Shown one piece after another: positions 37,646-55,991 of a stretch of 64,000 nucleotides of DNA. Within the stretch, counting starts at the first letter, position 1, and every line of letters begins with the position of its first letter. The translations under genes and the position numbers were made by a program. Location: contig NZ_QUSX01000001.1 in NCBI RefSeq assembly GCF_003933245.1, positions 62,001 to 126,000 of the forward strand. The letters are read 5' to 3'. The notes below the pieces were generated by a model, which saw only the letters and a list, made by a program, of their open reading frames with translations, was not told the origin of the DNA and made no database searches. The DNA is from Maribacter algicola (GTDB lineage: Bacteria > Bacteroidota > Bacteroidia > Flavobacteriales > Flavobacteriaceae).

Positions 37646-38017
37646 ATGAAACAGTTTTTGCTGATATTTTTAGGTGGTGGCATTGGAAGTTTTTTACGAT
37701 ATCTAATTTCCAAGACCCTAAATTCACACTACCCCAACTTTTACTTAGGCACTTTTCTTGTAAATATTTTAGGCTGCTTTATCATAGGTCTACTTATCGG
37801 GCTATCCTTAAGGAACAATTACCTATCACAAAACCAAATGCTATTGTTGGCAACCGGTTTTTGCGGTGGTTTTACTACGTTCTCCACATTTGCACTGGAA
37901 AGCCATATACTTCTTAAGGAACATTCAATTTTGTATATGTCCGTATATCTTGGACTAAGTATTTTTATAGGCATCCTTGCCATTGCCTTGGGGCTTTACC
38001 TCTGCAAGTTGTTATAA
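37646..38017 (+). CDS. crcB: Fluoride ion channel CrcB/Fluc
   Basis: 123 residues, four TM helices. Family motifs GGGIGSFLRYLIS at the N-terminus, LVNILGCFIIGLL (Asn of the pore) and GFCGGFTTFSTFALE (Phe box) are present. It forms a dual-topology dimer exporting F- through the inner membrane. No crcB-type fluoride riboswitch sequence is seen upstream; the leader instead carries the repeated element and a uORF that overlaps the start (GGATGA). Confidence 0.93.
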   Translation: MKQFLLIFLGGGIGSFLRYLISKTLNSHYPNFYLGTFLVNILGCFIIGLLIGLSLRNNYLSQNQMLLLATGFCGGFTTFSTFALESHILLKEHSILYMSVYLGLSIFIGILAIALGLYLCKLL

Positions 38018-38100
38018 TCTTAACAGCACCCTCTTTAATTTACATTTATTAAACATTTTTTTATCTTTTAATTGTTTTTTAAACAATTCTCATTAGAAAG

Positions 38101-38118
38101 TAACGTTTTGCTGCGTTA
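38101..38118. promoter_or_regulatory. Second TAACG-N8-CGTTA inverted repeat
   Basis: TAACG and CGTTA around TTTTGCTG, same arms and spacing as at 37317-37334. It lies 84 bp after crcB and 192 bp before glnK; no -7 box overlaps this copy. Confidence 0.4.
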
Positions 38119-38204
38119 TTATCAAAAATTAGCTATTTCGTTTGCCTTCCCCTGTTCAAATTCACAAAATAACATCATCTAAATATTCATACCTGTAATT
38201 TTTA

Positions 38205-38248
38205 GGGGGGTTAATTATTATAATTATAAAAATATGGCGCATACCCCC
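38205..38248 (+). promoter_or_regulatory. Nitrogen operator candidate upstream of glnK-amtB
   Basis: GGGGGG (38205-38210, context TTTTTAGGGGGGTTAA) and CCCCC (38244-38248, context ATACCCCCAAAAAA) span 44 bp. The glutamine synthetase intergenic region has the same pair over the same 44 bp (54858-54901). The C-run ends 30 bp before the glnK -7 box. An extra AAGGGGTGTTAA lies at 38256-38267. Confidence 0.6.
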
Positions 38249-38278
38249 AAAAAAGAAGGGGTGTTAATTTTTTTAACA

Positions 38279-38286
38279 TACATTTG
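38279..38286 (+). promoter_or_regulatory. glnK-amtB -7 box
   Basis: TACATTTG fits TAnnTTTG. No TTTG lies at -33 spacing, which suggests the promoter needs an activator. Confidence 0.55.
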
Positions 38287-38309
38287 AGCCATCTAAAACA
38301 ATTAGTACA

Positions 38310-38648
38310 ATGAAAAAAATCGAGGCAATTATCAGAAAATCCAAGTTTGATGAAGTCAAAGAGGCGTTACATCAAATAGAGGTCAATTTCTTTAGTTACT
38401 GGGATGTAACAGGAGTTGGGAACGAAAAACAAGGTCATGTATATCGGGGTATTTCCTATAGTACTACAGACATTCAAAGAAGATATCTCACCATTGTTGT
38501 ATCCGATGAATTTGCACAAAAAACCGTGAACACCATTTTGGAAACAGCCTATTCTGGTAATGTAGGGGACGGTAAAATATTTGTGTCCGATGTTATCGAA
38601 GCATATAGAATTAGGACAAAAGAAAGCGGTCAAGCAGGTATCAACTAA
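38310..38648 (+). CDS. glnK: P-II family nitrogen regulator (GlnK-like)
   Basis: 112 residues: MKKIEAIIRKSKFDEVKEAL, T-loop region GNEKQGHVYRGISYSTTDIQ, and the C-terminal GDGKIFVSDVIEAYRIRT. The T-loop is two residues shorter than in E. coli GlnB; Tyr50 aligns with the modified Tyr51. It senses 2-oxoglutarate and ATP/ADP and gates AmtB, encoded 27 bp downstream. Regulated probably through the G/C-run motif upstream. Confidence 0.94.
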   Translation: MKKIEAIIRKSKFDEVKEALHQIEVNFFSYWDVTGVGNEKQGHVYRGISYSTTDIQRRYLTIVVSDEFAQKTVNTILETAYSGNVGDGKIFVSDVIEAYRIRTKESGQAGIN

Positions 38649-38675: not shown

Positions 38676-39914
38676 ATGGACGCAGGATTATTTACAGCGA
38701 ATAACGTATGGATGATGTTGGCAACCGCATTGGTGTTCTTCATGCATACAGGTTTTGCCTTTTTGGAAATTGGTTTAACCAGACAAAAAAATACGATCAA
38801 CATTTTATTTAAGAACATATTCATCATAACGGGAGGTTTACTTCTATATTACGCCTTTGGGTTTAACCTAATGTACCCCGGTTTTGAGGATGGGGACACC
38901 GGAATATTAAAATTCGCAGGATTTGGTATCGCTGCACCGGAAGGAGGCATGACCCCTGATTACGCCGATGGTGGCTACACATGGTGGACAGATTTTCTTT
39001 TCCAAGGGATGTTCGCCGCTACAGCGGCAACCATTGTCTCGGGAGCCGTTGCTGAGCGAATCAAAATAGGTTCCTTCATGATTTTCACGATAGTTTACGT
39101 AGGATTGGTATACCCAATCGTTGGTGCGTGGAAATGGGGTGGAGGATTCTTGGATTCCTGGGGATTCTATGACTTTGCCGGTTCAACTTTGGTACACTCC
39201 GTGGGTGGATGGGCAGCTTTGGTCGCGGTTACTTTATTAGGCTCCAGAATAGGGAAGTTTGGAAAGGACGGTAAGCCAAACGCCATACCTGGCCATAGCA
39301 TACCAATGGCCACAGCTGGGGTTTTGATCCTTTGGTTGGGATGGTTTGGATTCAACGGAGGTTCCGTACTTTCTGCAGATCCAGAATTGACTTCCTTAGT
39401 ATTGGTCACTACAAGTTTGGCCGCCGCCGCCGGTGGTTTTGGCGCCATGATTACCTCAACCATTCTTTACAAGAATCTTGACCTTACCATGTTTCTTAAC
39501 GGTATCCTAGGAGGCTTGGTGGGTATCACTGCAGGAGCCGATTTAATGTCTCCAAACGAAGCAGTCGTCATTGGATTCTTAGCTGGTATACTTATCGTGT
39601 TTGGGGTTGCCTTGATCGACAAATTAAAACTGGATGATCCCGTTGGTGCGATTGCCGTACACTTGATTTGTGGTATTTGGGGAACCTTGGCCGTAGGTAT
39701 TTTTGGAAGCAAAGCAGGTATCGATCAATTGTTGACCCAATTATATGGTGTATTGATAATTGGAGCCTTTTGTATTGTAAGCGCAGGTATCATCCTTGGC
39801 GTATTGAAAGCTACCCTTGGTCTTAGGGTTTCAAGAGAAGAAGAATTGGAAGGTCTTGACATTCACGAACATGGAATGGATGCCTATCCCGACTTCAGAA
39901 TGAACCAACATTAG
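38676..39914 (+). CDS. amtB: Ammonium transporter AmtB
   Basis: 412 residues, eleven TM helices. Family motifs DFAGSTLVHSVGGWAALVA (conserved Asp and the first pore His), NAIPGHSIPMATAGVLILWLGWFGFNGGS (in part) and AVHLICGIWGTLAVG (second pore-region His). It conducts ammonium across the inner membrane and is blocked by GlnK. There is no cleavable-looking signal. A terminator follows. Confidence 0.96.
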   Translation: MDAGLFTANNVWMMLATALVFFMHTGFAFLEIGLTRQKNTINILFKNIFIITGGLLLYYAFGFNLMYPGFEDGDTGILKFAGFGIAAPEGGMTPDYADGGYTWWTDFLFQGMFAATAATIVSGAVAERIKIGSFMIFTIVYVGLVYPIVGAWKWGGGFLDSWGFYDFAGSTLVHSVGGWAALVAVTLLGSRIGKFGKDGKPNAIPGHSIPMATAGVLILWLGWFGFNGGSVLSADPELTSLVLVTTSLAAAAGGFGAMITSTILYKNLDLTMFLNGILGGLVGITAGADLMSPNEAVVIGFLAGILIVFGVALIDKLKLDDPVGAIAVHLICGIWGTLAVGIFGSKAGIDQLLTQLYGVLIIGAFCIVSAGIILGVLKATLGLRVSREEELEGLDIHEHGMDAYPDFRMNQH

Positions 39915-40026: not shown

Positions 40027-41073
40027 ATGAAACAGATTATAAATACAAAATTCGTAAAAAATATTGTTTTGTCAACATTGGCACTTTTTTCAGCTGTTTT
40101 CGTAATAGCACAAGAAGAGGAAAGCGGTTCAAAGTTTACCTTGAGCGGATCCATTGATGCTTATTACAGGACAACATTCAAAGATGGTGGTAATGCTACA
40201 ACTGCAACCCCAACTTCATTTGCAAATCAAACAGGATTTGCTTTAGGTATGGCAAATTTAATAGGGACGTACGACATGGGAAAAACAGGAGTCGTTGTGG
40301 ACTTGGTTTTCGGACCAAGGGGTACAGAAGCTACCTTCAACAATGATGTTTTAAATGGAATCATCAACCAGGCTTATGCTTATTGGAATGTTTCCGACAA
40401 AACTACCTTAACCATAGGTCGTTTCAATACTTGGGTAGGGTATGAAGTTATTGCACCAGCAGCAAACTTCAATTATAGTGTTTCTTACTTGTTTTCAAAC
40501 GGTCCCTTTTCACATCTTGGTGCCAAGGCTGATTTCGCTTTTTCAGATGACGTAAGTTTAATGCTTGCCATTACCAACCCTTGGGATACCAATGATATTA
40601 GCGGGTCAGGCGTTTATGCCCTAGGCGGACAATTAGGTCTTTATGGTCAATTTATCAATGTTTATTACGATGGTGGTAGCGAAGTTGCGGGAGGACTTGG
40701 TTTCGAAATCGACTATACAGGAGGTTTTGACCTTTCCGATAGCTTTTTCTTTGGTATAAATGCTGCATATAATGACAATTCACAAACGAATAGCGGATTC
40801 TATGGAGCAGCCATTTACCCACAAATAACTACATCGGATAGTTTTGCGATTGGACTAAGAGGTGAATATTTTGCATACACAGCGGATGGTTTTGACGATG
40901 TTCCTGTTACAGCCCTTACCTTAACTGGAAGTTATACAAAAGAAAATTTAATAATTAAGCCAGAAATCCGTTTGGACAGCTTTGGAAAGGATAACGAACC
41001 TTTCTTTGATAGTAATGGAGGAACTACCAACAGCTTATCCTCTTTTGCCCTTGCAGCTATATATTCTTTCTAG
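40027..41073 (+). CDS. Outer membrane porin, beta-barrel (BBP2/OmpL-like)
   Basis: 348 residues with a signal peptide (about 1-28, LSTLALFSAVFVIAQ) and a barrel ending in Phe (ALAAIYSF). Opening strand FTLSGSIDAYYRTTFKDGG and LTIGRFNTWVGYEVIAPAANFNYSVSYLFSNGPFSHLGAKADF (outline only) match putative beta-barrel porin-2 proteins. Placed directly behind amtB, it may admit ammonium or small N compounds; this is inference from position. Confidence 0.85.
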   Translation: MKQIINTKFVKNIVLSTLALFSAVFVIAQEEESGSKFTLSGSIDAYYRTTFKDGGNATTATPTSFANQTGFALGMANLIGTYDMGKTGVVVDLVFGPRGTEATFNNDVLNGIINQAYAYWNVSDKTTLTIGRFNTWVGYEVIAPAANFNYSVSYLFSNGPFSHLGAKADFAFSDDVSLMLAITNPWDTNDISGSGVYALGGQLGLYGQFINVYYDGGSEVAGGLGFEIDYTGGFDLSDSFFFGINAAYNDNSQTNSGFYGAAIYPQITTSDSFAIGLRGEYFAYTADGFDDVPVTALTLTGSYTKENLIIKPEIRLDSFGKDNEPFFDSNGGTTNSLSSFALAAIYSF

Positions 41074-43380: not shown

Positions 43381-43848
43381 TTAATAAGGTATTTCCATTT
43401 TCCGTACCGGACTCATGGGAGCATTTGAAATCACTTGGGAAAGTACGATATTGGTCCTGGTTTCCCCATATTGAATTAATTTATCAATAAATTTTTCCAA
43501 ATGGAACTGGTCCTTTAAGACTACTTCCATAACAATGTTCTCATTTCCTGTAATTCTGTAGCAGTTCACCACTTCATCAAAGGAATCCACCATCGCCAAA
43601 AATGGCTTGAGTTTGCCCATGAAGGCCCTTAATGTTATAATGGCCTTTAACTGATGTCCGGTAAGGGAATGGGAAACTTTAGCATGATACCCAGTTATTA
43701 TTCCCAAATCTTCCATCTTTTTGACTCTTTCCCCAACCGCAGGTGCCGTTAAACCTATGGACCTCCCAATATTTGCGAAGGATTCCCTGGCATTTCCCTG
43801 TAGTTTTTCAAGAATTTTCCAATTAAGTTTATCTATCTTTATATCCAT
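43381..43848 (-). CDS. Lrp/AsnC family transcriptional regulator
   Basis: 155 residues from the ATG at 43848 (MDIKIDKLNWKILEKLQGNA). N-terminal winged helix-turn-helix (ARESFANIGRSIGLTAPAVGERVKKMEDLGII in part) and a C-terminal RAM/AsnC ligand domain. It regulates amino-acid metabolism genes in response to an amino acid; its target is unknown. Divergent from the gene at 43970. The longer open frame upstream (to 43971) would run into that gene's promoter and has no family similarity. Confidence 0.92.
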   Translation of the reverse strand: MDIKIDKLNWKILEKLQGNARESFANIGRSIGLTAPAVGERVKKMEDLGIITGYHAKVSHSLTGHQLKAIITLRAFMGKLKPFLAMVDSFDEVVNCYRITGNENIVMEVVLKDQFHLEKFIDKLIQYGETRTNIVLSQVISNAPMSPVRKMEIPY

Positions 43849-43969
43849 AATTTTTTTGCCAATTATATTTTCGAATGTAAAGTAATTTAAAAAATTTGAT
43901 TCATAATCAAAAGACAAATAAGAATTACCTGTAGTAATTTTATAAAAGTATACGATTAATATACTTATC

Positions 43970-44359
43970 ATGTCCCAGAAAAATCTTAGAAATATTCCAG
44001 TTTATAGAAAAGCCTTGGAACTTTGCCGTACGTGTCGGGAAATAGCCTCCTATGTATCCTTTAACAAAGACCTTTTGAGATTATACGAAAGTAACAGTCT
44101 AAGGGATATCATCGCCAATTCCATTTTAACCGATGCTATCCTAATTCCACAAAAAATTGCAATGGTAGAATCGTCACGTTCCACTTCTGAACGATTGCAA
44201 AACGTTTCCTTCATTAACATCATGATCAGGAATATCAATTCCTATTGCCTTGGACTGGAAAAAGACGGGGTAAAGGAGACAGAATATATAAACCTGCTAA
44301 GGTCAGAATTAAAAAGCTTTAGAAAGTATTACAGAAAGTGGAAGGTTTCCATTAAATAA
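43970..44359 (+). CDS. Four-helix-bundle-like hypothetical protein
   Basis: 129 residues, all-alpha and basic. NIPVYRKALELCRTCREIASYV at the start and LRSELKSFRKYYRKWKVSIK at the end resemble the four-helix-bundle (S23/IVP-like) proteins, but the match is weak. No rRNA gene is nearby. Function unknown. It is divergent from the Lrp gene. Confidence 0.6.
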   Translation: MSQKNLRNIPVYRKALELCRTCREIASYVSFNKDLLRLYESNSLRDIIANSILTDAILIPQKIAMVESSRSTSERLQNVSFINIMIRNINSYCLGLEKDGVKETEYINLLRSELKSFRKYYRKWKVSIK

Positions 44360-52597: not shown

Positions 52598-54784
52598 TTA
52601 CTTGATAAACAATAGTTCGCTGTATTTGGTCAAAGGCCATAACTGGTCCTCGATCAACTTTTCCAATTGATCGGCATGGTTTCGTATGGTATCGAAATAA
52701 GGCTTTACATCATTACAGTAAGCCTCGGCCATTTTGTAGCTATCCCTTATTTTATCGGCTTTGTTCTGTGCAAGAGTCAAGGTGTCGGTAGTCTTTTTCA
52801 ACGCAGCAATATGCTGTCCTATTTCTTCGATCATAGAGAGCTGGGCCTCCGTAAAAGCTTTATGTGCAGCACCATAGATTTCCTTTAAACCAGTCACATT
52901 GGTAATCAATTTATTCTGATAGGCTATCGCCGATGGAATTACCGAATTGTACACCAAGTCCTTGTACATATGCCCCTCTATTTGCAAATGCATCACATAG
53001 GTTTCCAGTTCAACCTCCATGCGCGCCCCTAGCTCTACCTCGCTCATGACCTTCATCGACTTGAACAGGTCTATTGTATTTTTCGAGCCTAGCACGCGAA
53101 GGGCTTCAGGGGTATTTTTATTATTACTAAGCTTTCTCTTTTTAGCTTCATTTTCCCAATCCTTACTATACCCATCGCCATCAAACCGTATTCTTTTACA
53201 GGTCTTGATATACTCCCTCAATACATTGAAAATGGCTTCGTCCTTCTTAAGACCTTTTTTATCCAGTAAGATGTCCACTTCCTTTTTAAAATCCTTGAGC
53301 TGTTTCGCTACAATGGTATTCAGCACGGTCATGGGCTTGGCACAGTTGGTTTTGGATCCTACACCGCGCATCTCAAACTTGTTCCCTGTAAATGCAAATG
53401 GGGAAGTACGGTTACGATCTGTATTGTCCAGAAGGATTTCCGGAATCTTACCAACGACATTCAGTTTAAGCTCCGTTTTTTCCTCTGGCGAGAGCTTTCC
53501 CTGTGAAACCCCTTCCAATTCGTCCAGAACACTACTTAATTGCTTCCCGATAAAAATTGAAAAAATAGCTGGTGGAGCCTCATTGGCTCCCAATCGATGG
53601 TCATTACTGGCGGAAGCAATCGAGGACCTTAGTACCTCCTCATAGGTATCCACCGCCTTTATGGTATTTACAAAGAAGGTCAAGAACTGTAGGTTTTTCA
53701 TTGGTGTGGAACCCGGACTCAATAAATTAACACCTGTATCCGTGGCCAAGGACCAATTATTGTGCTTTCCGGAACCGTTTACTCCCGCGAAGGGCTTTTC
53801 ATGGAACAAAACTTTTAAATGATGTCTGTCCGCAATTTTATCCATAACATCCATCAACAACAAATTATGGTCCACTGCCAAATTGGCTTCCTCAAAAACC
53901 GGGGCCAGTTCAAATTGGTTGGGGGCTACTTCGTTGTGTCTAGTCTTCACGGGAATTCCTAGTTTGGTACACTCTTTCTCCAAATCGCTCATGAAACTGA
54001 GGACCCTACGGGGAATCACACCAAAATAATGGTCGTCCAACTGTTGTCCCTTGGCGGCCGCAACTCCCAATAATGTTCTTCCGGTAATAATAATATCGGG
54101 GCGGGAATACGCCAATGCCTTATCTATCAAAAAGTACTCCTGCTCCCAACCCAAAGTGGCATTTACTTTGGTGACGTTCTTATCAAAATACTTGGCCACG
54201 TTGGTGGCGGCCTCATCTACCGCGCTCAACGCCCTTAACAAAGGCGCCTTATTATCCAAGGCCTCCCCAGTATAGGAAACGAAAACGGTTGGAATACACA
54301 AGGTTGTTCCGTAAATAAATGCTGGTGAAGTTGGGTCCCAAGCGGTATACCCTCTGGCTTCAAAAGTATTCCTGATACCACCGCTAGGAAAACTGGAAGC
54401 ATCTGGTTCCTGTTGTACCAGTTGTCCCCCACCGAACTTCTCCAAAGCCCTCCCGTCCAAGGTCAGATCGAAAAAGGCATCGTGCTTTTCCGCAGTACTT
54501 CCCGTCAACGGCTGAAACCAATGCGTATAATGAGTGGCTCCCATTGTGATTGCCCAACCTTTGATAGCCTCCGCGACTTGGTCCGCAATTTTACGGTCAA
54601 TTTTGGATCCTGTAAGAACAGCGCCTTTCAAACTGTCATAAGCATCCTTTGTCAAATATTGCAGCATTTTGGACTCATTGAATACATTGAGCCCAAAAAT
54701 ATCGGAACGTCTTCCTTTTTCCTCTACTGAAATAGCTTCTCTTTTCAGGCTTTGGACAATGGCTTCAAATCTAGGTATGGACAT
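52598..54784 (-). CDS. glnN: Glutamine synthetase type III (GlnN)
   Basis: 728 residues, the length of Bacteroidota GSIII. Conserved blocks: THYTHWFQPLTGSTAEKHDAF, FPSGGIRNTFEARGYTAWDP, GWEQEYFLID, KTRHNEVAPNQFELAPVFEE, HEKPFAGVNGSGKHNNWS and NDHRLGANEAPPAIFSIFIG (each quoted in part). It forms glutamine from glutamate and ammonia, as a dodecamer without adenylylation. It is divergent from GSII, sharing a control region. Confidence 0.96.
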   Translation of the reverse strand: MSIPRFEAIVQSLKREAISVEEKGRRSDIFGLNVFNESKMLQYLTKDAYDSLKGAVLTGSKIDRKIADQVAEAIKGWAITMGATHYTHWFQPLTGSTAEKHDAFFDLTLDGRALEKFGGGQLVQQEPDASSFPSGGIRNTFEARGYTAWDPTSPAFIYGTTLCIPTVFVSYTGEALDNKAPLLRALSAVDEAATNVAKYFDKNVTKVNATLGWEQEYFLIDKALAYSRPDIIITGRTLLGVAAAKGQQLDDHYFGVIPRRVLSFMSDLEKECTKLGIPVKTRHNEVAPNQFELAPVFEEANLAVDHNLLLMDVMDKIADRHHLKVLFHEKPFAGVNGSGKHNNWSLATDTGVNLLSPGSTPMKNLQFLTFFVNTIKAVDTYEEVLRSSIASASNDHRLGANEAPPAIFSIFIGKQLSSVLDELEGVSQGKLSPEEKTELKLNVVGKIPEILLDNTDRNRTSPFAFTGNKFEMRGVGSKTNCAKPMTVLNTIVAKQLKDFKKEVDILLDKKGLKKDEAIFNVLREYIKTCKRIRFDGDGYSKDWENEAKKRKLSNNKNTPEALRVLGSKNTIDLFKSMKVMSEVELGARMEVELETYVMHLQIEGHMYKDLVYNSVIPSAIAYQNKLITNVTGLKEIYGAAHKAFTEAQLSMIEEIGQHIAALKKTTDTLTLAQNKADKIRDSYKMAEAYCNDVKPYFDTIRNHADQLEKLIEDQLWPLTKYSELLFIK

Positions 54785-54807
54785 AGCGTAACAAATTATT
54801 AATTCGG

Positions 54808-54841
54808 CAAAATTACGGTGATAAAATATTTATTTGACAAA
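54808..54841 (-). promoter_or_regulatory. GSIII promoter (TTTG-N22-TAATTTTG)
   Basis: Minus strand TTTG at 54838-54841 and TAATTTTG at 54808-54815, spacer 22 bp. An ATACCC half-motif (54842-54847) abuts the -33 box. Confidence 0.55.
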
Positions 54842-54857
54842 ATACCCAATTAAAATT

Positions 54858-54901
54858 GGGGGTATGATATAATTTATTGAATTCTTAGAGATTTACCCCC
54901 C
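54858..54901 (+). promoter_or_regulatory. Nitrogen operator candidate between GSIII and GSII
   Basis: GGGGG (54858-54862, context AATTGGGGGTAT) and CCCCCC (54896-54901, context TTTACCCCCCAAAA) span exactly 44 bp, as in the glnK region. The C-run ends 29 bp before the GSII -7 box. A related ATACCC at 54842-54847 forms an inverted repeat with GGGGGTAT. Confidence 0.6.
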
Positions 54902-54930
54902 AAAATATACTGAGATACCTGAAAAAAACA

Positions 54931-54938
54931 TATTTTTG
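54931..54938 (+). promoter_or_regulatory. GSII -7 box
   Basis: TATTTTTG (TAnnTTTG), 36 bp before the ATG at 54975; no TTTG at -33 spacing, as at glnK. Confidence 0.55.
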
Positions 54939-54974
54939 GTCGTCTTTTTAATATGTAATATAACTACCAAAATT

Positions 54975-55991
54975 ATGAGCAAGATTAAATTAGAATACAT
55001 TTGGTTAGATGGATACTACCCAACCCAAAACATGAGAAGCAAGACCAAAGTGGTTAACAAATTTGGCGGAAAATTGGAAGACTGTCCCATGTGGTCCTTT
55101 GATGGTAGTTCCACGAGACAGGCAGAAGGAGGATCTTCAGATTGTTTGTTGAAACCTGTAGCTTTGTTTCCAGACCCTGCAAGAAAAGACGGGTGGTTGG
55201 TAATGACGGAGGTATTAAATGCTGATGGCACACCACATGAATCCAACGGTAGGGCCACGATTGATGATGATGACAATGATTTTTGGTTTGGTTTTGAACA
55301 GGAATATTTTATAATGGATACCCATACACAATTGCCTTTAGGATTTCCTATTGGGGGTTACCCAGCGCCTCAGGGCCTATATTATTGCTCCGTTGGAGGA
55401 AAGAACACACATGGAAGGGATATTGTAGAGGAGCACGCCGATTTATGTATCGCTGCCGGAATTAATTTTGAAGGAATTAACCAAGAGGTAGCATGTGGAC
55501 AGTGGGAATTTCAGTTGTTCGCCAAAGGTGCAAAAAAGGCGGGTGATGAACTTTGGGTGGCTCGTTATTTATTAGATCGTCTTACAGAATCCTATGGATA
55601 CTACATTGAGTATCACCCAAAACCATTAGGTAAGGACATGGATTGGAACGGTTCTGGTATGCACGCAAACTTCTCCAACACAACTTTAAGAACTGCCGGT
55701 TCAAAAGAAGTTTACGAAAAAATATGTGAAGCCTTTAGACCTGTTGTCAAAGAGCATATTGAAGTGTACGGCGAGTTTAATGATCAGCGTTTGACCGGTA
55801 AGCACGAAACCGCTTCCATCAACGATTTCAGTTATGGTATTTCTGACCGTGGCGCTTCTATCCGTATTCCTATTGCAACCGTGGAAAGCGGTTGGAAAGG
55901 ATGGTTGGAAGATAGAAGACCAGCTTCAAACGGTGATCCATATAAAATTGCCGGAAGAATCGTTAAAACCGTAAAGTCTGCCAAAGTATAA
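54975..55991 (+). CDS. Glutamine synthetase type II (beta-grasp, eukaryotic-like)
   Basis: 338 residues from the ATG at 54975 (MSKIKLEYIWLDGYYPTQN). GSII motifs: CPMWSFDGSSTRQAEGGSSD (in part), WFGFEQEYFI, GQWEFQLFAKGA, DWNGSGMHANFS and GISDRGASIRIP. It lacks the adenylylation loop of GSI. Having GSIII and GSII side by side suggests a shared nitrogen response with different kinetic ranges; that is inference. The upstream 13-codon extension is not family-like. Confidence 0.95.
   Translation: MSKIKLEYIWLDGYYPTQNMRSKTKVVNKFGGKLEDCPMWSFDGSSTRQAEGGSSDCLLKPVALFPDPARKDGWLVMTEVLNADGTPHESNGRATIDDDDNDFWFGFEQEYFIMDTHTQLPLGFPIGGYPAPQGLYYCSVGGKNTHGRDIVEEHADLCIAAGINFEGINQEVACGQWEFQLFAKGAKKAGDELWVARYLLDRLTESYGYYIEYHPKPLGKDMDWNGSGMHANFSNTTLRTAGSKEVYEKICEAFRPVVKEHIEVYGEFNDQRLTGKHETASINDFSYGISDRGASIRIPIATVESGWKGWLEDRRPASNGDPYKIAGRIVKTVKSAKV

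Follow-up and report, generated by a model that had tools for sequence, protein, structure and literature searches.

Nitrogen genes of the window and the elements upstream of them

The window is a stretch of 64,000 nucleotides from Maribacter algicola (contig NZ_QUSX01000001.1, positions 62,001 to 126,000). It contains nitrogen genes whose identities in an earlier note on this DNA (P-II protein, ammonium transporter, GSII, GSIII) were borne out by profile matches:

38310..38648, + strand: glnK, P-II nitrogen regulatory protein (PF00543, E 5.5e-23)
38676..39914, + strand: amtB, ammonium transporter (PF00909 and TIGR00836, above cut-off)
40027..41073, + strand: BBP2 beta-barrel porin gene (PF07642, E 9.6e-62)
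52598..54784, - strand: glnN, type III glutamine synthetase (GSIII), divergent from glnII (PF12437, PF18318)
54975..55991, + strand: glnII, type II glutamine synthetase (GSII) (NF041605, E 5.7e-113, under its cut-off; PF00120 and PF03951, above cut-off)

The porin gene is probably in one operon with glnK and amtB, and a porin relative lies close to glnK or amtB in 34 of 40 chosen loci (L161-L200, see below). When amtB was searched against named genomes, Maribacter sequences were closest and other Flavobacteriaceae came next. The following elements lie upstream of glnK and GSII:

38191..38209, no strand: site A of the glnK promoter, ACCTGTAATTTTTAGGGGG, left arm worn (matrix score 15.5)
38226..38233, + strand: ATAAAAAT, A-tract separating the palindromes, at about -61.5 counted from the inferred start (found in 21 of 35 amtB pairs)
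38243..38261, no strand: site B of the glnK promoter, ACCCCCAAAAAAGAAGGGG, dyad centre about 38252 (matrix score 20.5; 27 bp to the -7 box)
38279..38286, + strand: TACATTTG, -7 box of the glnK promoter, without a -33 box (from the sequence)
54844..54862, no strand: site A of the GSII promoter, ACCCAATTAAAATTGGGGG, dyad centre 54853 (matrix score 20.5; an exact palindrome match in the genome)
54897..54915, no strand: site B of the GSII promoter, CCCCCAAAATATACTGAGA, right arm GAG, dyad centre 54906 (matrix score 8.4)
54931..54938, + strand: TATTTTTG, -7 box of the GSII promoter, 25 bp from the centre of site B (from the sequence)

The element consists of two palindromes

The earlier note had described a single 44-bp operator bounded by a G-run and a C-run. 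The runs were placed correctly (GGGGGG at 38205-38210 and CCCCC at 38244-38248 upstream of glnK; GGGGG at 54858-54862 and CCCCCC at 54896-54901 upstream of GSII). They are not due to chance. GGGGG-N30..38-CCCCC occurs at three distinct places in the 4.11-Mb genome and two of them are these; the third lies within a 350-aa open reading frame. The anatomy, however, was wrong: a 17-bp palindrome with an A/T core, CCC-N11-GGG, is present in two copies, A and B, whose spacing is about 53 bp. The G-run belongs to A, as its right arm, and the C-run to B, as its left arm. In named relatives, two copies of the palindrome ACCCC-TAA...TTA-GGGGT precede glnK. In the window the left arm of A is worn at glnK (ACCT) and the right arm of B is worn at GSII (GAG), where site B is a good half-site only. 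Only the inner runs had stood out because these two sites each lost part of the outer arm. The equal centre distance of 38.5 bp noted for the two places holds as the gap between the inner arms, whereas the spacing of the dyads themselves is 52-53 bp.

A palindrome-pair matrix was built from 54 promoters. The glnK pair scored 36.1, compared with a maximum of 7.6 in 300 dinucleotide shuffles, and the GSII pair scored 28.9, compared with a maximum of 6.9 in the same number of dinucleotide shuffles. The best 20 pairs of the window at spacings of 51-55 bp (lowest score among them 16.8) were all at the glnK and GSII promoters, which agrees with the earlier statement that only the nitrogen genes in the window carry the element. 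Among all spacings of 20-120 bp, the six best pair scores in the window had spacings of 50-55 bp.

A logo of 73 promoters, anchored on the A-tract, displayed site A, ATAAAAAT, site B and then TAnnTTT, with the dyads 53 bp apart. The inner arms and ATAAAAAT in this logo were fixed by the search pattern, but the outer arms were left free, and they are CCC at 89-96% and GGG at 77-84% per position. Among the 70 pattern loci, 14 were left out of the logo (12 of the first 30, without a nitrogen gene; L174, with none; and L184, on the other strand), and the remaining 17 of the 73 rows are amtB loci that match the pattern.

Conservation by target gene

Of 52 flavobacterial amtB loci in named genomes, 35 have the pair. 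These 52 were scored from a set of 80, in which the other 28 were from other phyla (about 19) or from other Bacteroidota, including L057. Some of the 17 loci without a pair are truncated or lie within longer operons, which covers part of the 17. When amtB sites scoring above 9 were compared over the range of 20-120 bp, 125 of 126 separations, as listed with neighbouring registers of one site counted apart, were 50-56 bp. Locus counts for amtB, glutamine synthetase and gltB, as well as box phasing and TTG counts, were compared with mononucleotide shuffles; pair scores in the organism's own genome were compared with dinucleotide shuffles.

At glutamine synthetase loci, the pair scored above all 50 shuffles in 27 of 30 cases. 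Where GSII and GSIII are divergent, a -7 box lies 25-27 bp from the site in the direction of GSII in 16 of 18 loci. GSIII loci with no GSII found beside them also have the pair, and the box lies at 26-27 bp towards GSIII in 6 of 12; several pair scores at these GSIII-only loci are low and the fit is poorer. In the window (54784-54862), a TAATTTTG box lies 38 bp from the centre of site A in the direction of GSIII, suggesting that GSII and GSIII may share one site, at a different position relative to each gene. glnN is a possible second target of this pair.

For gltB, 16 loci were collected and three were left out since their start was not recognised by our rule. The pair was present in 12 of the 13, all 12 from the genus of the window, and absent from the locus of another family. 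In most loci it lies near -298 and -246 from the start codon, and in the organism's own genome it scored 19.8 against a shuffle maximum of 15.1. Same-genus gltB loci have two palindromes about 52 bp apart, followed after 54 bp more by a third that is weak or a half-site; in L283, the one locus where this third site was scored, it is weak and near -192. A third dimer might therefore bind at gltB, on the same face of the DNA. In other genera, 17 of the 40 chosen loci, which had been picked for A/T-rich interiors, hold gltB nearby; in 16 of these 17, gltB and the porin-side genes are divergent, with the pair in the interval between them.

The alanine dehydrogenase gene ald has a strong single site in 6 of 21 loci (one of the 21, L314, is cut at the contig start), and two of the six are clear pairs. 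In the organism's own genome, a strong palindrome (C1:1702092-1702111; L216, L297) lies 132 bp before the ald start codon. The pair there scores 21.7, compared with at most 14.0 in shuffles, and owes this to the one site; the second scores below 0. Two relatives, L302 and L306, have a full pair at ald, spaced by 52-53 bp.

A conserved site thus stands before several genes of one pathway in related genomes, and judged from sequence it is a conserved two-palindrome operator of nitrogen-assimilation genes in Flavobacteriaceae. The best reading of the putative regulon is ammonium uptake and assimilation, that is glnK-amtB-porin, GSII/GSIII and gltBD, together with ald in part of the family.

Pattern searches across genomes

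The bare G-run and C-run are a poor descriptor of the element. They had a match in 130 of 299 related genomes, and the control count was often equal or larger. The earlier note had named absence or random occurrence in relatives as the result that would count against its proposal. By that measure the palindrome pair survives, whereas the bare runs fail. A loose palindrome pattern was useless in the organism's own genome (88 forward matches against 153 in the control). A tight pattern with at most one mismatch gave 86 forward matches against 61 in the control, among the matches listed. Its exact matches are at four distinct places, namely the glutamine synthetase region, ald, C1:2059669 and C2:1105450, of which the last two are probably chance.

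A composite pattern that includes ATAAAAAT matched 162 of 397 genomes of the family, while the control, counted by hand, matched about 85; many single composite matches are therefore due to chance, and the pattern alone is not specific. Among its first 30 loci, 18 are at porin, glnK, amtB or GSIII genes. The 40 chosen loci gave 39 at nitrogen genes, which is not a fair rate because they were picked for A/T-rich interiors. The training and test sets may share species, as L020 and L172 look like one genome. In four genomes opened afterwards (G046, G052, G137 and G325), the element was at glnK-amtB or glutamine synthetase genes in all four. Outside Flavobacteriaceae, the strict composite was at the control level (26 of 220 genomes against 21, a hand count of pattern matches only), and 11 of 27 within-family genomes matched in the same search. 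A similar two-palindrome layout with ATAAAAAT was observed upstream of glnK in L057 (Pontibacter), which lies outside Flavobacteriaceae, suggesting a wider range than this family.

Promoter geometry and proposed mechanism

The TAnnTTTG boxes without a -33 box that had been reported for both promoters were confirmed: TACATTTG and TATTTTTG are present and there is no TTG 17-23 nt upstream of either. The 35 amtB pairs were chosen neither for ATAAAAAT nor for the box. A TAnnTTT box lies 25-28 bp from the centre of site B in 32 of them, compared with 2.6 expected, and ATAAAAAT is present in 21, compared with 1.5 expected. TTG at the -33 place was found in 3 of 32 promoters, which is rarer than the 6.8 from shuffles. 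The start-site map of F. psychrophilum, in the part of the source available to us, has TAnnTTTG at -12 to -5 (PMC9723704), from which the approximate positions would be -38 for site B, -62 for the A-tract and -91 for site A. As in promoters of class II activators, the distance to the -7 box is fixed, the proximal site overlaps the -35/-33 region and the upstream box is missing.

We propose that this is a two-site operator from which a dimeric activator switches on nitrogen assimilation in Flavobacteriaceae, and we give this reading a probability of roughly 0.7. A homodimeric transcription factor would bind each CCC-N11-GGG palindrome. The dimer at site B (about -38) would replace the missing -33 box and help the housekeeping RNA polymerase to use the TAnnTTTG box in the style of a class II activator. 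A second dimer would bind cooperatively at site A, which lies five helical turns further upstream and on the same side of the helix. Between the two dimers, the A-tract ATAAAAAT (about -62) probably holds the tail of the polymerase alpha subunit or eases bending. This class II layout with a helper dimer, which we liken to CRP, NtcA and TnrA, is our reading of the geometry, and we likewise infer protein binding, activation and a nitrogen response.

The activator reading is favored because these promoters lack a -33 box and the proximal palindrome overlaps the region where it would lie; the target genes alone point to a nitrogen response. Of the nitrogen-responsive activator site suggested in the earlier note, the part that a control site is shared by nitrogen genes is strongly supported by conservation, fixed spacing and phasing, while activation is supported indirectly.

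The same sites could instead belong to a repressor. When nitrogen is ample, a dimer over the -33 region would block the polymerase, and another one bound 53 bp further upstream would close a small repression loop. Site B does cover the whole -33 region, and two sites at whole-turn spacing suit looping. However, 29 of 32 promoters lack a TTG at the -33 place, suggesting that they are weak without an activator, and the tight phasing to the -7 box is expected for polymerase contact. We therefore regard repression as rather unlikely. That the palindromes act as RNA hairpins, with site A as the terminator of the upstream crcB gene and site B as a leader hairpin, seems very improbable. Site A upstream of glnK has grown into a long perfect inverted repeat in Psychroflexus (L011 and L013), where it may double as a terminator, and site B at glnK in the window folds at -9.1 kcal/mol (z -2.5). 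But site A at glnK and both GSII sites fold not clearly better than shuffles, and site B lies upstream of the inferred start. The position of the pair between divergent genes (gltB and porin-side genes at 16 loci; GSII and GSIII) also speaks against a terminator, as transcripts are not expected to end there. The outer arms also stay CCC (89-96%) and GGG (77-84%) and do not change in step. Scanning of 38000-38320 gave no terminator-like site, and there was no Rfam match at gathering score in 34000-58000.

Likeness to known nitrogen-control systems

In cyanobacteria, the nitrogen regulon has NtcA class II promoters, in which a single GTA-N8-TAC palindrome near -40 replaces the upstream promoter box. 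The promoters described here are similar in that they serve nitrogen-assimilation genes and have a palindrome near -40 instead of an upstream box, but the palindrome is CCC-N11-GGG and it is paired at about 53 bp. The TnrA/GlnR boxes of Bacilli, TGT-N11-ACA, also precede nitrogen genes. Both they and the present sites are 17-bp palindromes with arms 11 bp apart and an A/T core; the present arms are CCC and GGG rather than TGT and ACA, and they come in fixed 53-bp pairs. We rejected identity with the TnrA/GlnR box, for although the spacing agrees, the free outer arms read CCC (89-96% per position) and GGG (77-84%) across the 73 promoters. In Proteobacteria, NtrC and sigma-54 act at glnK-amtB and gln genes with paired palindromic sites upstream. 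The paired palindromes are a common feature, but the promoter here is TAnnTTTG. A sigma-54 promoter was rejected, as TGGCAC-N5-TTGC had no match with up to two mismatches at 38190-38310 or 54840-54975.

Candidate regulators

The sites look like landing places of a common nitrogen regulator. No regulator beside the targets was recognised by eye among the gene clusters common to at least three of the 40 loci. Candidates were searched in the MerR and Lrp/AsnC families, and the regulator may belong to neither.

One candidate is MliR, a short MerR-type protein without an effector domain. MliR of Bizionia argentinensis is a conserved flavobacterial activator with a known role in iron, and no binding sequence was found in the available part of its description (PMC9478572). 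Its describers likened it to TnrA/GlnR (PMC9478572), and the arm spacing of CCC-N11-GGG is that of the TnrA box. It is one of two MerR_1 matches in the organism's own genome and is present in 388 of 397 genomes of the family, so near-universal that co-occurrence cannot discriminate. It also matches the TnrA model, if weakly (23 bits, cut-off 140). In Bizionia, the transcripts that fall on deletion of mliR are mostly of iron genes, but they include those for D-serine dehydratase and asparagine synthetase B (PMC9478572, in the part available). On the other hand, the protein has been described as an iron regulator, and in the main text of PMC9478572 as available the words glutamine and glutamate are absent and none of the present target genes was found named. 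The MerR and CueR models fit MliR better than the TnrA model does, and no site scoring above 12 was found in 12 stretches around mliR. We regard MliR as a candidate of rather low probability. By eye, in the stretches examined, mliR itself (C1:2135086-2135412; L269) is behind a peptidase-like gene that is divergent from an alaS-like gene, and a LemA-like gene is often next.

A universal Lrp/AsnC protein is another candidate, of similarly low probability. The organism's own genome encodes five Lrp/AsnC proteins, and those considered were the AsnC-like protein at C2:730270 and one about 2.2 kb from ald, which itself carries a site. Judged by best BLAST match, both likely have orthologs in G046, G052, G099, G197 and G325, all five of which bear the pair or the pattern. 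Lrp proteins bind palindromes that have an A/T core and are arranged in phased arrays, which fits the present sites, but known Lrp sites are 15 bp and thus shorter than the present palindrome, and no site scoring above 9 was found just before the AsnC-like gene in six stretches examined. A gene of about 860 aa, PEP carboxylase-like by eye, adjoins the universal AsnC-like gene in L385, L386 and L387, and a similar gene is near amtB in five loci. The window also encodes an Lrp protein of its own (43381-43971). It has an ortholog in G197, and G046 was counted neither way; no ortholog was found by BLAST in G052, G099 and G325. Since these three genomes carry the pair or pattern at glnK-amtB, the window's Lrp is unlikely to be the regulator.

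Implications for nitrogen control in Bacteroidota

Textbooks cover nitrogen control in Proteobacteria, cyanobacteria, Bacilli and Actinobacteria. Within the literature available to our search, we found no earlier account of the two-palindrome element, nor any report of a nitrogen operator of Bacteroidota or of the regulator that acts on it. In another member of the phylum, Prevotella ruminicola, measurements have shown nitrogen control of a comparable set of genes (PMC5552732); in the part of the source available, the direction was inconsistent and no regulator was named. Bacteroidota are among the commonest phyla of sea, soil and gut. With a 19-bp bait, a fixed geometry and a list of targets, the regulator could be found by pull-down and the promoter logic could be tested by reporters.

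Tentatively, and at somewhat less than even odds, we suggest that Flavobacteriaceae, and perhaps other Bacteroidota, use an undescribed master regulator of nitrogen assimilation on housekeeping promoters. Its dimers would sit at five-turn intervals, two of them or perhaps three at gltB, and flank an A-tract for the alpha-subunit tail, and the regulator may be MliR or an AsnC-like protein. If this is true, a regulator known for iron (MliR) or amino acids (AsnC-like) would be the counterpart of NtrC, NtcA and GlnR in these bacteria.
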